A stretch of DNA of 41,778 nt from a virus. Below the pieces are notes generated by a model that worked only from the letters and a program-made list of their open reading frames with translations, was not told the origin of the DNA and did not search any database. Shown piece by piece: positions 22,201-29,119 of the stretch. The stretch covers positions 1-41,778 of IMG/VR virus record IMGVR_UViG_3300030329_003886; one strand, 5' to 3'. How positions within the stretch are numbered: the first letter of the stretch is position 1; every line of letters begins with the position of its first letter. Made by a program: the position numbers and the translations under genes.

Positions 22201-24711
22201 CAGTTCTTCGTAAGCTAGACTACCGTCTCTAAACAACTCCATCGTCTCTATGTTGGCTCTTTGTTGCTTAATGTCCGCCATAATCGATGCTCGTTCTGCC
22301 CACAACTCCTCGATTTCCACATCGTCTCTTTTATAGCGTTTAGTGGTTCTTCTCAAAGCACTTGATAACGCTTGTTCCGCTGCTGCTGGCGTAGAAAACT
22401 TACCATTAGCCACAGCCGCTGCCACAGCCATATTAACCTTGTCCCCCATTTGATTGGCCATTTTATTCATGGCGCGAATCCGCCCTAGTCGGTCTCTTGA
22501 TAACATGAAAGCTTCCCATCCTAGTGGTCCGCTTGGTGCGAACCAATGCTTAAGAGAACCCATGATTCCCCCGAAAAAATTGGCTGGGCGAATATTTTCC
22601 GGAGTCATTTCAAAGCGCAGGGTTTGAACGTTTGTGGCAGCGCGGTCCTTAGCTCCCGCGTATTTGTTAAATAGTCCTGTGCCCCCGACCACGTTTCCTT
22701 CTTCGTCGGTTTGAACATCTCTTACTTCAAACTTTGTTCCGTCTTGGTCGACCTGAAGGTTGTCGCCTTCGTTCAATGTTTCTGTGCCGTCCTCAGCAAA
22801 ACGTATGGCAACAGCTTCGCCGTCTACGCCTGTACTCTGTTCCACAAACTCTTCCCAAGAACCGTACTTTTCTTGCATCCCTTCTCTATCAAACATGGTC
22901 TCGTCTATTTCATAAAAATTGACGTTTTCCAAAGGACCTTTTGCTTGTATTTGTTTTTTATAACCTTTACTGTAGCCCTCTCCACGCAGATAATTTTGTG
23001 TGCGCTCTTTTTGCAAGACCATAAACGTGTCAAAGTCCATAATCATCTTAGCCATCTCCTTGTTGGTGGCTGTTTTCTTCTTACCATCTTTTACAATAGA
23101 GGCAGTAAGCCCCCTGGTTTTAAGTTCTTGTGAAAGCTCTTTGCGACTCTGTTGCTCTAGTTGCTCCAAACGCGCAATGTATTTAGGTTCTTGTGCTGCC
23201 GCATAAATAATAGAGGCACCCCCTGTAAGGGCTCTTTTTTCTAGCAGTTCTTGGTCCAGTATTTTATTAATGACTTCTGCATCGGAATCTTTCCTGTTCA
23301 CTATAATAAGTTTCATCTCTGGACCGCCCTCATCGTCCTTTAAAACCTTACTGTCGGCCAGTTTCAGTAGTTCTCTACGATCCATGTTTCTTAGCTCTTC
23401 GCGCCTATTGAGACGTTCTTGCTTTTCTTGAGCCGTAAGGGCACCAAAATTCTCCATGAAGTAGTTAGCCTGTAGTTGAGCCCTTCTTTTTAATACTTCA
23501 TAATTTGTTAGTTCTTTTATAATGCTGTCGTTACTGGCATTTTTTCTCAGCTTAATGTTTCTGCGCTTGGCGCCTTCTATCAGTTCCTCTCGGGACATGT
23601 CTTGCCAAGTTTGTCCTGCGATATTGACCTCTTTTTGCACCTCTTCTTCTATACGGTCCATTTGTTCTTTTACTTCTCGCTCACTTTTCTTCCTTTGATT
23701 AACACCGTATTGACTGATGGCCCCGGACACGCTACCTAGTGTTCCACCACCAATGCTTCCTAATAAGAAAGCGTTGAGCAAAGCGCTTTGCAACTGCCCT
23801 TCTTCACTGGCCAAACCGGTTGCGGCTTCAGCCATAAAGTCCTCGATCCCTTCTTGCGATGCTTCCGTAACGCCTTCCGCCAAAGAAGCTTTCACCGCCT
23901 GCGCCACCGCCGCTTTAGCCACACCCTTCTCTACCCCTTCTGCTACTAATTTTTCAGTAAGTTCTTCAAGGGTTGCTTTCTTTAAAAGCACCGGCATTAA
24001 AGGTTTAAGACCAAAGGCAATTGAAGCAACGTCTAGGGAAGCGACCATGGCTCCTCCTGCCATTGCTGCGCCAGGGGACTCAAAATCTTCCCCGGCTCTG
24101 GCCTTCATTTCACGATCTACCTCACCGGTACTGAGCACAAAAGAAGGTAGGAAAGCACCCAAAGCACCGCCAATAAGGCCGCCCGCAATCCGGGCTCCGG
24201 GTACAGGTATGGCAGCAGCAGCAAGAGCCCCTGCTTTAGCGCCGTAAATAGAGGTGGGCATAGAAACAGCAACGGAGGGAAGGATTTGTGCCATTCCTTG
24301 TTTAATAAAAGTCATGGCATCGCCCAAGTCTTCCACTTCTTCGGCAATCATGGGACGCCCACGTTTGGCTATTTGTTGATCGTTAAAGGCAACGCCGCGA
24401 TTACCGGCATCAACTAATCTTTCTGAGTCGAACACTTCGCCCAACACACGCACGCCAGCCCAACCACTTGCTTGTAGTTCGTCAACTGTTCTGCTTAATA
24501 CGGAGCCAAAGCCCTCGTCTCTTGGGTCGCCGCTGATTGTCGAAGGAGCGTCGTCAAAAACCCTTTCTCTGTTTTGTTCCTCGAAAAAAATTGAGTCGTC
24601 AGGCTGTTTTTTGGTAGGGTCTTGTTCCTCGAAAAAAATTGAGTCGTCAGGCTGTTTTTTGGTAGGGTCTTGTTCCTCGAAAAAAATTGAGTCATCGATA
24701 GTTTGTGCCAC
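19219..24711 (-). CDS. Giant internal virion / ejection protein
   Basis: An 1830-residue protein, last gene of the late operon. The N-terminus holds three copies of a 16-residue repeat with DDSIFFEEQ (residues 6-14, 22-30, 38-46). Ala/Gly-rich hydrophobic segments follow (about 150-210, 225-250, 305-335), then long helical stretches. A central region has WRNFVVAPKAYVQLGKIVLSP and QIRNFLSAALFVVGNG, and later PNYDYVGRFAEAL and FIAFPTEIVRTSANI. These recall the large polyvalent-type proteins of marine podoviruses that are packaged in the capsid and injected with the DNA. I see no transglycosylase or protease motif. The start is GTG 24711 behind AGGAG. The function is inferred from size, composition and position. 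Confidence 0.65.
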   Translation of the reverse strand: MAQTIDDSIFFEEQDPTKKQPDDSIFFEEQDPTKKQPDDSIFFEEQNRERVFDDAPSTISGDPRDEGFGSVLSRTVDELQASGWAGVRVLGEVFDSERLVDAGNRGVAFNDQQIAKRGRPMIAEEVEDLGDAMTFIKQGMAQILPSVAVSMPTSIYGAKAGALAAAAIPVPGARIAGGLIGGALGAFLPSFVLSTGEVDREMKARAGEDFESPGAAMAGGAMVASLDVASIAFGLKPLMPVLLKKATLEELTEKLVAEGVEKGVAKAAVAQAVKASLAEGVTEASQEGIEDFMAEAATGLASEEGQLQSALLNAFLLGSIGGGTLGSVSGAISQYGVNQRKKSEREVKEQMDRIEEEVQKEVNIAGQTWQDMSREELIEGAKRRNIKLRKNASNDSIIKELTNYEVLKRRAQLQANYFMENFGALTAQEKQERLNRREELRNMDRRELLKLADSKVLKDDEGGPEMKLIIVNRKDSDAEVINKILDQELLEKRALTGGASIIYAAAQEPKYIARLEQLEQQSRKELSQELKTRGLTASIVKDGKKKTATNKEMAKMIMDFDTFMVLQKERTQNYLRGEGYSKGYKKQIQAKGPLENVNFYEIDETMFDREGMQEKYGSWEEFVEQSTGVDGEAVAIRFAEDGTETLNEGDNLQVDQDGTKFEVRDVQTDEEGNVVGGTGLFNKYAGAKDRAATNVQTLRFEMTPENIRPANFFGGIMGSLKHWFAPSGPLGWEAFMLSRDRLGRIRAMNKMANQMGDKVNMAVAAAVANGKFSTPAAAEQALSSALRRTTKRYKRDDVEIEELWAERASIMADIKQQRANIETMELFRDGSLAYEELSIEQQEQLKRFNTKQNLENLRLQLMIWRGDLEDVNQILAGQFRALPREEKQALNQEQRAIMNNKENALLAPTSAAYALPEELRDSFLELRGFIDMMSTRILREVPQEILASKKGGKALGEVIQENIGSYMTRSYRIFEAAGGYDPLSWWNRTMPTKSAKVMRQKVADVRALLENAKNPDGTKKYSKSRVEREIRMIGQGRVGEQQAEEIGGIFGRGEPGTEEAMIQDMAQELVKRRKRIPKEVRALMGEVTNPGEAAAVTTARLASVLESNRFWQRMAILNEMPGQRLFSPVPVPKGDTAGIAPNWFAKETGLTVKVQSNGYNPFEGMYTTKEVAEVLGVAENYNMMFNNSSIWRNFVVAPKAYVQLGKIVLSPPAQIRNFLSAALFVVGNGHFIGFRNLPEAMKVVGHELWEQGVDEQGRPITARQAAQESYRDLLDLGVLNTSVRLGDLLASWRLASSGMFEGPGDFVAATSNPFRQMYRRAEEFYTAADDFWKVVAYASELQAVKKAFPTEADFNQLLAHAKDLGMSYTIDRQSFEQAQKELAAFYVRQTVPNYDYVGRFAEALRTGPAAVLGNFIAFPTEIVRTSANILTIGAAEIQSDNSAIRKRGWARLAGYGTAAYGVGAAAQAIGQAVSDIDDEDIEAARKFLPDWAQNNLIIPIEKKTEAEGGGFDFIDGSYIAVYDDLAKMVPTTLNEVSKAVEEGRSASDAVISGMTTAIANFSEPFLEPSIFAQASLDVLQNRNSNTGRPIWNEAEGRGKPLGGVGDQSVAYLNYFWDRVAPGIWTAGEKVYRGGQEGEKAYDRFGTKQEFGDALSSFFGIKVSRVNPSSSLSFALTDLLNEQRDAEKIFTKQVYNKGAVTPQELLDAYLAMQKSNYFVNQDIFSTFEAAELLNIREAVLDNTKRERLSAKQRKMLRNKENLALKSRAALNSLRKDFDKQTEAIEEAEQLPSGRFFPIDDLVEVYNYFKDLPLLSQPQAEIVREEEFEYFE
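24574..24694 (-). repeat. 48-bp tandem repeat (2.5 copies) in the giant virion gene
   Basis: The unit begins TTGTTCCTCGAAAAAAATTG on the plus strand at 24574, 24622 and 24670, period 48. It is essentially perfect until the third copy diverges. It encodes the 16-residue DDSIFFEEQ-containing unit. The sequence identity implies recent or ongoing expansion. Confidence 0.9.
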
Positions 24712-24723
24712 TTTTGTCTCCTA

Positions 24724-27033
24724 TTAGGGACGACTAACCCAATCTGTGATAATTTCTTTAGGTTTTTTGCCGGCGTTTCTTGATTGTCTGTAAAACTCAG
24801 CGAAATTTACTTGTTTTGAAACTCCCCCAGAAGACACTGTTTTTTCTCCGCTTAACTCATTATATCTTTCCGAGGCATAGGCTGCGCCATATTGCCTCGT
24901 TGCGTAAGTCATGTTTTCTTCAATAGAAAAATTGTCTGATTTTTCTCTTTGAGCCATAACAGCATCTGCGCCATACGTTGTTCCTCCAGTACCAAGTTCA
25001 ACTTTAAGTCTTTCAAGGTCCATGGCCAGTTCGTTTTCAATTTGCGATTGAGCAAGAGCAGCTTCGGCATCTAACATAGACTTATCAATGTTTGAAAGAA
25101 TCTCGTATTGCTTAAGCTTTATGTCATACAATGCTTTAACGTCTCGGTCACGTCTGGCTTCGGTTTCTTGTTTCCTTAAGTTCTCAAACTCTATTTTGTT
25201 TCGGTTGTTTTGTTGAAAACGATCCTGCTCAAAGCTTTTACGCAACAAGTCTTTCTTCACAGCCGTTGCTCCAGAGCCCACTGTCTGTGTAGGGGTACTA
25301 AGTGCCCTATATCTTGCTTGTTCCGGAATCCTTCGCTCAATGTCGTCAAAAATCTTTCGCATGTTTTCGTCTTGTTTCTTGGCATCTTCCCCGTAGTCTT
25401 TGATGCTTTGGTCTAAGATAGATGTTATGCCTTCAATACTTTTTTCCGTGGTTCCTTTTAATGTTTCCGCTTTTTCTTTTACACCGGCCAAAGGATCGCC
25501 TTGTTGCATCAGTTTAATGAGCTCCATTATTTCCGCATTACTCATTCCAGCGTCTTTCCCAGCTTTCATTATAGCGGCTAAGTCTTGACCAGTGTCTTGG
25601 AAAGAAAGACCTTGGTCCACGGACTCTTGTCCTTCTGGTAAACCTCTTTTCTGCGCGGTAACTTCGATCTCTTCTATAGGAGACTCTTCTATAGGAGGAG
25701 CCATCATTTCTTGGTATTGGGTAACAATGGCCCTGGTCCTCGGATCTTTAAGTATTGAGCTTACTCCCCCGGTTTGCCCAACTTTAGTCATAAACCCTGA
25801 TTTACGAAAACCTTCTGTGCCTTTAATAGCGTCCAAGAGTTCTTGTTTTGCTTTTTCTTCGGGGGTAGTTTCTTTTCTGCGCTCTTCTAATAACTCTTCA
25901 TAAGACAGCCCCTCTATTCGTCGTCGTTCTGCGCCCGGCAAAGAAAAGCCGCCTTTTTGTTCCTCAACTAATTTTTTTATTTGCGCTATATCGGGCCCGT
26001 ATTTTTTAACCATAAGCTCTTCAGCGGTTTCCAAAGAAACGCCCTCGTTCCTTATGTCTTCATCTATCCAAGCCCATTCATCCGACACTTCTCCTCCGTC
26101 TTGATACCCTGGAATCAGTCCGCCCTTCTTCGCCATTACAGCGGTGTCCATTAACGGTTCTTCGCTGCCCACTTCGGGGACTTGGAAAATAGCCACGAGT
26201 TCTTCACGATAAGGCATAAGATCATCGCTGCTGATTAGGTTAGCGTCTGCCGGGACTTCTGGATACTTTTCCGTTATCTCGTTTTCAATCCGTCTTGCAG
26301 ATCGTGCAAGATCGTCCATGCTGCTTTTAATAATAAAGGAAGGACTGTTCCCGGTGGCCTCTTCCGCTTTAGCGGTGCTTTTTAATATGTTAAATTCTTC
26401 GTCTAAGCGGCCCTGCGCTTCTTGTTTTGCCATTGCCACGATTGGTTCATCGTCTTCAACTTCTTCGGCGTCCAAGGCCAGTTCAATAATACCTCTTTCG
26501 TTAGGCACGTTTCTCTCAGGCATAGCTTCTGGCGCAGGCGCAGCGGAAACCGATGCAATACCTGGTCCTCCTTGTGCGGCCATTGCGTTTATCATTGGAT
26601 TGGTCTCGACAATCTCTTCGCCTTCAAACAACTCAGGCGCCATGCCCCCTGTTTGAAGCATAACAATGCCCCCTGTTCTCATTTTAGGGGCACCTCTTTG
26701 TGCCTCTATGGCTTTCTCCAAATCTTGCATGACTTGTTCTTCAGGAACCTGGTGCCCACCGGCGATGTTCTTAGCGTACCAGTGAAGATTTGATTCATAG
26801 TCTCTAAGTAAACGGGGACGATTTGGGTCACTTGACGAAAAAAGACGCGCTATTTTTTCAACTGCTTTTTGATACTCCGCTTCTTTAGCCAACTGTTCTT
26901 GTCTGTACGCAGGCATTTCTTCGACCACGCTTCCTTGCTCGTACCCAGGAATACCTTTAGGCATGCCCACAAAACCACCGCCCATCATGTTGTGGGGGTT
27001 TTTAAACAGTGGTCGTTGACTCCAGCCCGGCAT
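24724..27033 (-). CDS. Putative virion/ejection protein with TonB-box-like motif
   Basis: A 769-residue protein, mostly helical and charged, unrecognised as a family. Features in order: a Gly-rich start with KGIPGYEQG (26-34); GGIVMLQTGG (121-130); KKGGLIPGYQDGGEV (302-316); a Pro-rich linker with PIEEIEVTAQKRG (452-464), which looks like a TonB box; then coiled-coil-like helices (about 510-700). It lies between two other presumed internal proteins, and its ATG overlaps the upstream stop (TAATG). The IPGY/GG hairpin motifs are also found in the neighbouring late proteins. It is probably a packaged or tail-associated delivery protein. That role is inference. Confidence 0.6.
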   Translation of the reverse strand: MPGWSQRPLFKNPHNMMGGGFVGMPKGIPGYEQGSVVEEMPAYRQEQLAKEAEYQKAVEKIARLFSSSDPNRPRLLRDYESNLHWYAKNIAGGHQVPEEQVMQDLEKAIEAQRGAPKMRTGGIVMLQTGGMAPELFEGEEIVETNPMINAMAAQGGPGIASVSAAPAPEAMPERNVPNERGIIELALDAEEVEDDEPIVAMAKQEAQGRLDEEFNILKSTAKAEEATGNSPSFIIKSSMDDLARSARRIENEITEKYPEVPADANLISSDDLMPYREELVAIFQVPEVGSEEPLMDTAVMAKKGGLIPGYQDGGEVSDEWAWIDEDIRNEGVSLETAEELMVKKYGPDIAQIKKLVEEQKGGFSLPGAERRRIEGLSYEELLEERRKETTPEEKAKQELLDAIKGTEGFRKSGFMTKVGQTGGVSSILKDPRTRAIVTQYQEMMAPPIEESPIEEIEVTAQKRGLPEGQESVDQGLSFQDTGQDLAAIMKAGKDAGMSNAEIMELIKLMQQGDPLAGVKEKAETLKGTTEKSIEGITSILDQSIKDYGEDAKKQDENMRKIFDDIERRIPEQARYRALSTPTQTVGSGATAVKKDLLRKSFEQDRFQQNNRNKIEFENLRKQETEARRDRDVKALYDIKLKQYEILSNIDKSMLDAEAALAQSQIENELAMDLERLKVELGTGGTTYGADAVMAQREKSDNFSIEENMTYATRQYGAAYASERYNELSGEKTVSSGGVSKQVNFAEFYRQSRNAGKKPKEIITDWVSRP

Positions 27034-27992: not shown

Positions 27993-29119
27993 TATCCTAT
28001 CCCCATTTGTTCTGCTTGTTTCATTAGTTTATACAGTCTCTTTGCCCCTATATTATCCGTTGCTTTTTTAGTAAACACAAATTCTCCCGGTTCAAGGAAG
28101 GCTGGAGTGATGTCCCCATGACTTTTAAGGCCCATAATTCCCCCTTGATTACCGCCCTCTATTTCTTCTAATAAAGGCATGCCCGAAACGTGTGTGGCTG
28201 CGGGCATTGTTGTTCCTTTTGGCATGGCGTATTTTTGCCCTTGAAGAATGTTTGGTCCTAGCCCCTGCATTACCATGCTTTCCTTGGAAGGCAAGCCCCA
28301 TTGTTTTCCTATCGCGCTTTGTGCTGCCATTTGCCCAGTTGGGACCTTGTATTTATTATAGTCATCAATTGCTTTCTTAGATTTTACTATCTCAAACAAT
28401 TTTTCAAACCAACTAAGCTCTTCATCGCCTCCACCTAGCCCTTCCCAACCTAACAAAGAACCAAGACCCGCTATACCCCCTATACCAGATAAAATTGAGC
28501 TCCAGTCAATTCCCGACGACATCGAATCTGGTTGTGTTCCCGTGACCGTTATCTCTTCAATCGTTTCGTTATCAGCGGGAGTGCCTGGGCTTTCATCAGG
28601 GATAGCCTCCCAGCCATCACCAAGCCCCCAAACACTCCAAACGTATTTTATGCCGTCCTTAATGACCTGCATTCCCTCTGTCGGATTTTCTGGAAACTTT
28701 TCAACAACGGTTATTTCATCTATTGTGTCTGTTCCTGTCTCTGTTCCTGTTATTTCTTCAATTGTTTCGTTATTAGCAGGACCTCCTGAAGTTGTCTCTG
28801 TTCCCGTGCCTGTGCTCGCTATGACATCTGCGTAACCACCAAGCACAGAATCGTCATTTTCTACGCCAGTAGTGTCATCAGCCCCTGCTTCAGCAAAGTC
28901 TTTGGCCACCCTATAATCAGCGCCGTGGTCAATCCAGGACTGAGACCCTTTTGGCCCATGGCCAAATACATCTATATACCATTTAGCAAACTCAACAGCG
29001 GGGTGGTTCCATGGATACTCCGGGATAGACATACCTTCCGCGGCCGCGACAATCTTACTTGTTTCATAAGAGTCGTCAAAAATTGAGCCGTCAAAAGGTT
29101 TATCCCATGGATCCGTCAT
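27992..29119 (-). CDS. Putative virion protein with three TonB-box-like motifs
   Basis: A 375-residue protein. The N-terminus has DGSIFDD (10-16), resembling the DDSIFFEEQ repeats of the giant protein. A domain with WNHPAVEFAKWYIDVFGHGP (37-56) follows. A Thr/Glu-rich linker carries NETIEEITGT (117-126), DTIDEITVVE (131-140) and NETIEEITVTGTQ (184-196), all close to TonB-box sequences. Between the last two lies a small WSVWGLGDGW domain. A Gly-rich hydrophobic stretch (203-228) and a C-terminal HGDITPAFLEPGEFVFTKKA motif, known from other phage structural proteins, complete it. It is probably part of the delivery apparatus, by inference. Confidence 0.6.
   Translation of the reverse strand: MTDPWDKPFDGSIFDDSYETSKIVAAAEGMSIPEYPWNHPAVEFAKWYIDVFGHGPKGSQSWIDHGADYRVAKDFAEAGADDTTGVENDDSVLGGYADVIASTGTGTETTSGGPANNETIEEITGTETGTDTIDEITVVEKFPENPTEGMQVIKDGIKYVWSVWGLGDGWEAIPDESPGTPADNETIEEITVTGTQPDSMSSGIDWSSILSGIGGIAGLGSLLGWEGLGGGDEELSWFEKLFEIVKSKKAIDDYNKYKVPTGQMAAQSAIGKQWGLPSKESMVMQGLGPNILQGQKYAMPKGTTMPAATHVSGMPLLEEIEGGNQGGIMGLKSHGDITPAFLEPGEFVFTKKATDNIGAKRLYKLMKQAEQMGIG

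Follow-up and report, generated by a model that had tools for sequence, protein, structure and literature searches.

In receptors and colicins, the TonB box is a short peptide that TonB binds through pairing with one of its β-strands (PMC11658791). Their action in receptors and bacteriocins depends on the short peptide and its local structure. In receptors and colicin M, proline or charged substitutions abolish function and TonB suppressors restore it (PMC11658791). In TonB-dependent transporters (FhuA, BtuB and the EEIVVTAQKR type of Pseudomonadota), the box lies in a flexible region just after the signal peptide. Colicin M, colicins 5 and 10 and klebicin C are foreign proteins, each with a TonB box of its own in an unstructured stretch, that are drawn across the envelope (PMC11658791). 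The irreversible adsorption of coliphage T1 requires TonB and an energised membrane (PMC11658791), but the known box of such TonB-dependent coliphages is that of the receptor FhuA. The receptor-binding protein pb5 of phage T5 makes no contact with the TonB box of FhuA (PMC9586334). In the open-access papers searched, no virion-borne TonB box was found described, whether for tail, tape-measure, ejection or other virion proteins of phages. The one paper among them that joined the terms TonB box, bacteriophage and tail protein concerned FhuA and phage T5 (PMC9586334).

The window analysed here, 41,778 nucleotides in length, comes from a marine, podovirus-like genome and takes up the greater part of its 42.6-kb IMG/VR virus record. 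Genes for a primase, a helicase, a family A DNA polymerase and an exonuclease were located on the plus strand, and a virion cluster (P0003, P0010, P0002, P0001, P0004, P0005 and P0009) on the minus strand. The cluster starts with P0003 (30512–32404, minus strand, 630 aa), a stabilisation-type virion structural protein (phrog_3287, E = 9.3e-70). P0001 (27992–29119, minus strand, 375 aa) has a disordered Thr/Glu-rich linker and a C-terminal segment HGDITPAFLEPGEFV...GAKRLYKLMK. It was classed as tape-measure/ejection-like on the basis of gene order and of its C-terminus, which resembles that of a DSL-LC04 phage protein annotated as tail tape measure protein. P0004 (27033–27992, minus strand, 319 aa) weakly matched a family of DNA ejection proteins (phrog_4287, E = 8.8e-4) and showed weak similarity to gp064 of Caulobacter phage GB2A. 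P0005 (24724–27033, minus strand, 769 aa), another member of the ejection cluster, is mostly helical. P0009 (19219–24711, minus strand, 1830 aa) is a large virion/ejection protein with relatives in named phages (phrog_6958, virion structural protein, E = 3.8e-33). By gene order, with neighbours matching phrog_3287, phrog_4287 and phrog_6958, the cluster is an ejection/tape-measure-like module. The likeness of P0001, P0004, P0005 and P0009 to known phage tape-measure and DNA-ejection proteins was seen in the order of the genes, in PHROG matches and at the C-terminus. The gene order was the same in DSL-LC04, where the equivalents are annotated as stabilization protein, tail tape measure protein and DNA transfer protein. 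P0001 is presumably a component of the virion, and gene order and weak matches suggest that both P0001 and P0005 are ejected during entry.

Based on the DNA polymerase and P0003, the nearest named phages included 023Pt_psg01, DSL-LC04 (host recorded as Gammaproteobacteria) and the Pelagibacter phages HTVC023P and HTVC027P, at approximately 32–54% identity. A tblastn search with P0005 returned no match in named phages, so the window clade has no named phage with a known host. Profile-based similarity of P0001 to the GB2A and L093 proteins was not significant, nor was that of P0005 to the neighbouring GB2A protein; nothing beyond a common C-terminal motif and the gene order was retained for them. 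Several other features of the window were recorded. The N-terminus of P0009 (about 24560–24711, minus strand) contained tandem acidic-aromatic repeats (DDSIFFEEQDPTKKQP, three copies). Its homologues were similarly built but with different repeats (YDPFAPLEEEQE in L036, ENPFSAW in L033 and L035), resembling a further repeated linear motif. P0006 and P0008 (34078–36414 and 36386–37561, minus strand) had signal-peptide-like starts, which is unusual beside a virion cluster; the middle of P0006 was acidic and of low complexity, and P0008 contained a long Asn/Thr repeat. P0007 (39580–41367, minus strand) was fibre-like, with many repeats of the NTAVG..AL.ANTT type and a terminal segment resembling an intramolecular chaperone.

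A first-pass annotation had described three tandem TonB-box-like motifs in a probably unstructured linker of P0001. All three strings were found as described in the protein, on the minus strand, but they differed in quality. NETIEEITGT (residues 117–126; 28742–28771) is a degenerate copy in which the central V is absent (EEITGT). DTIDEITVVE (residues 131–140; 28700–28729) is a partial match with E where TonB boxes have A or G. The third, NETIEEITVTGTQ (residues 184–196; 28532–28570), is the one good TonB-box-like motif of P0001; its core EEITVTG fits the pattern acidic-x-hydrophobic-x-V-[TS]-[AG], and the other two strings do not. To speak of three boxes in P0001 is therefore an overstatement. 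The claim that three near-matches exceed chance held: shuffling the whole protein produced three [DE][ET][ILV]T cores in 0.025% of cases, and shuffling residues 100–200 did so in 0.055%. A strict box such as EEITVTG was obtained in 0.09% of shuffles. The linker was predicted to be unstructured in part, with disorder at the NETIEEITVTGTQ site, whereas DTIDEITVVE adjoins a small predicted beta module (residues 146–172) rather than free linker.

By singling out P0001, the annotation had missed the best box in the window, which belongs to the adjoining P0005. This motif, PIEEIEVTAQKR (residues 452–463; 25645–25680, minus strand), is the strongest TonB-box mimic and lies in a predicted disordered linker. 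Its core EEIEVTAQKR fits the same pattern; the box peptide PIEEIEVTAQKRG is a putative TonB ligand. A loose scan of the open reading frames of the window detected no other motif of like quality. Disorder was predicted for the P0005 box and for the third P0001 string in models built from four-sequence alignments, with low overall confidence. In an alignment of four P0005 homologues (the window, L011, L009 and L018), the protein was well conserved to about residue 310 and divergent thereafter. Within the divergent part, 8/10 residues of the box were invariant, versus 3/120 in the flanks (hypergeometric p = 4e-8, residues 316–566). Between the window and L011, seven of ten box codons differed synonymously and one by a conservative Q to K replacement; the codons thus change mostly synonymously and the peptide itself is kept. 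Judged from these sequence comparisons, the P0005 box is under purifying selection within a variable disordered linker.

The P0005 motif shares the VTAQKR half of the transporter box. The strict pattern EEIxVTA[QKR]KR matched eight times in 5 of 299 Pseudomonadota genomes. All eight matches were N-termini of TonB-dependent receptors, with a signal-peptide-like start, the motif and then a Pfam Plug domain approximately 14 residues further on. The phage boxes are short, like those of the transporters, and are predicted to lie in flexible regions. Unlike the transporter boxes, they are internal and belong to presumed virion proteins, and Pfam searches of P0001 and P0005 detected neither Plug (PF07715) nor barrel domains. 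Box peptides alone, compared with Pfam and PDB sequences, were too short for useful signal. Phage prohead-protease sites and Tol boxes were considered by reasoning only, and neither explains the conserved VTA[QK]KR half. From their sequence, the P0001 and P0005 motifs are most likely genuine TonB-box mimics.

The position of the box changed among near relatives. The NETIEEITVTGTQ box was retained in the P0001 homologues of L001 and L003. In L004, where the P0001 homologue alone was available, it was degenerate, with MEEITGTG and nothing better. The relatives L033–L035 had no box in P0001 and kept the P0005 box, which in L035 reads LEEIVVDAKKRG. Conversely, L036 had lost the P0005 box (RPMVETSTTSAKTT), while its P0001 homologue contained DEITVVAKPP and MEETTVTGKIP; the second stands in place of NETIEEITVTGTQ, and DEITVVAK, a better box, occupies the position of DTIDEITVVE. 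Seven TNDTV pentads immediately preceded DEITVVAK in this homologue (L036:5250-6401). The box of near relatives was therefore found in P0001, in P0005 or in both. These two proteins are unrelated, and no relative with both genes available was without a box in one or the other. The expectation of a conserved island in an otherwise variable linker, voiced for P0001, was borne out in P0005. Homologues that keep the fold and lose the motif, named beforehand as evidence against the idea, did occur in part: nearly so in L004, in P0001 of L033–L035, and in both proteins of distant relatives. Near relatives without the P0001 box had one in the adjoining P0005 instead.

To assess recurrence, 2.9 million viral contigs were searched with strict, wider, permuted and reversed patterns. 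The strict pattern matched nine viral stretches, and its permuted form none. Three of the nine belonged to the window clade, and the matches in L018 and L020 were P0005 homologues. Other strict matches lay in a 359-aa protein in the virion cluster of another phage, with three tandem boxes (L014), in a fusion of an ejection-type protein with a lytic transglycosylase domain, with two boxes (L022), and at the N-terminus of a tail-tube-family protein (L021). A search for relatives of the L014 protein returned L014 itself alone. The wider pattern [I/L]EEIxVTA[QK] matched 88 viral stretches versus 20 for the reversed motif; 80 were fetched, all in frame, and formed 25 clusters. Thirteen clusters were tail, ejection or baseplate proteins, one was a receptor family, one a large unknown protein (L075), one weakly tail-like (L109) and nine background-like. 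The thirteen included window P0005, tape-measure family matches (L134/L068/L083, L077, L128/L115 and L137), a tail/hub-type protein (L072), the tail tube protein (L021), a weak virion match (L079) and five clusters assigned by gene context (L014, L093, L124, L117 and L121). The L109 box was left out of the thirteen. The nine clusters of short open reading frames, terminase and head proteins were treated as background, as was L016 (EEIAVTAQKS, in a protein with minor-head-protein matches). The reversed motif yielded eight clusters, with no open reading frame above 263 aa. Tail/ejection clusters made up 13/24, versus 0/8 in this small control with unannotated open reading frames (Fisher p = 0.007). 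Tandem boxes were present in L128 (LEEIVVTAQRI and LEEIVVTASRV), L115 (LEEIVVSGRRI and LEEIVVTAQRV), L093 (four copies) and L014 (three copies). Among T4-like proteins of the tail, hub or baseplate region (L072, L081, L117 and L021), the box was located within the first dozen residues, as in colicin M.

The receptor family recovered by the wider pattern served as an internal positive control. It comprised 33 receptor-like members (L069, L070, L071 and 30 more viral contigs) of approximately 660 aa with a signal-peptide-like start and a TonB box, and the one representative tested contained a Plug domain. They lie on viral-classed contigs and are either phage-borne receptors or host contamination.

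Most tape-measure and ejection proteins examined had no TonB box, unlike P0001 and P0005. The box was absent from distant relatives of the window phage (DSL-LC04, HTVC023P, HTVC027P and CRP-901) and from the tape-measure or hub homologues checked in the pelagiphages HTVC111P, Kolga and Mosig. It was also absent from 32 bacterial-genome homologues of the tape measure of L128, and no prophage homologues of the L068 tape measure were found. Its absence from distant homologues marks the box as a lineage-specific add-on, and its absence from many homologues indicates that it is dispensable for the basic function of these proteins. The strict pattern occurred nowhere in seven genomes with L128 homologues, which fits tuning to the box style of the host but proves nothing, as other box styles exist. 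In Caulobacter phage GB2A, the protein at the P0001 position, which has the peptide DEIVVTPS, contained PVDEIVVTPSQP and further VDPVVV/VDELVI repeats, possibly a variant box in a culturable host.

We put the probability at roughly 0.55 that the P0001 and P0005 boxes are TonB-box mimics used by TonB/ExbBD during entry. Both proteins would be part of a virion cluster whose products probably pass into the periplasm of the host by ejection at entry, and judging by the type of protein, the box is probably exposed there during genome entry. The disordered linker of each would copy the receptor TonB box, [I/L]EEI-x-VT[A/G], with the receptor-type extension QKR added in the P0005 copy. Once periplasmic, the linker could pair with the C-terminal domain of host TonB by beta-augmentation; we infer such binding from what the peptide is known to do in receptors. 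TonB/ExbBD, driven by the proton-motive force, might then help to dock the ejected proteins or to pull them, together with the DNA conduit, from the tail or in the direction of the inner membrane. An energetic role of TonB in entry is suggested by analogy with the TonB-dependent bacteriocins, whose way of working would be identical to the one proposed here. Each bacteriocin is one secreted protein that includes a killing domain, whereas the phage boxes belong to presumed internal virion proteins; PHROG and Pfam searches of P0001 and P0005 matched no receptor-binding or killing domains of bacteriocins. That TonB boxes occur in a virion/ejection protein, as the first-pass annotation had proposed, is well supported by identity with receptor boxes, constraint on the P0005 box and recurrence in unrelated phage entry proteins. 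More tentatively, with doubt slightly outweighing confidence, TonB boxes may have arisen convergently in envelope-crossing proteins of many unrelated tailed phages of receptor-rich Gram-negative hosts, with entry powered or docked by TonB/ExbBD.

The same peptide under the same purifying selection would also be expected of a decoy, in which injected boxes would not power entry but occupy TonB and stop receptor transport, keeping out bacteriocins and phages that arrive later. Tandem copies would suit titration, and there is precedent: phages are known to block TonB-dependent receptors after infection, as the T5 lipoprotein Llp does by jamming FhuA (PMC9586334). However, a few injected copies would be a weak titrant compared with a protein made after infection, and the location in tape-measure, ejection and baseplate proteins indicates the entry step; we regard a decoy as unlikely. 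An assembly or packaging signal (binding, for example, portal, scaffold or tail chaperone) that resembles a TonB box by chance is slightly less likely still. Linkers of virion proteins do bear assembly signals, but the receptor-specific VTA[QK]KR half is part of the match as well, and podovirus-type ejection, siphovirus tape-measure and T4-like tail-tube/baseplate proteins share the peptide while assembling differently. Moreover, the box switches from one protein to another, unrelated one, and many homologues that must assemble do without it.

Chance alone would mean that Glu/Thr/Val-rich linkers yield such strings and that large collections contain some. About 9/25 wider-motif clusters were indeed background-like, similar to the eight control clusters. 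Shuffles, purifying selection, the permuted and reversed controls, tandem copies and the tail/ejection enrichment (p = 0.007) all disfavour this explanation, which we consider improbable to much the same degree as an assembly signal. Finally, mimicry goes past the classical box (A-[QK]-K-R), as would be expected if a receptor N-terminus mimic were read by a host periplasmic or envelope factor other than TonB. In receptors, however, the binding partner of this peptide is well established to be TonB (PMC11658791), and we hold another reader to be very unlikely.

How tailed phages move entry proteins and DNA across the periplasm is an old question, as is why some infections require an energised membrane or TonB. 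If virion proteins bear their own TonB box, this would provide a simple, testable energy source for crossing the periplasm. The box could also indicate the hosts of uncultured phages, namely those with EEIVVTAQKR receptors, and could mark the tape-measure and ejection linkers that become exposed in the periplasm.
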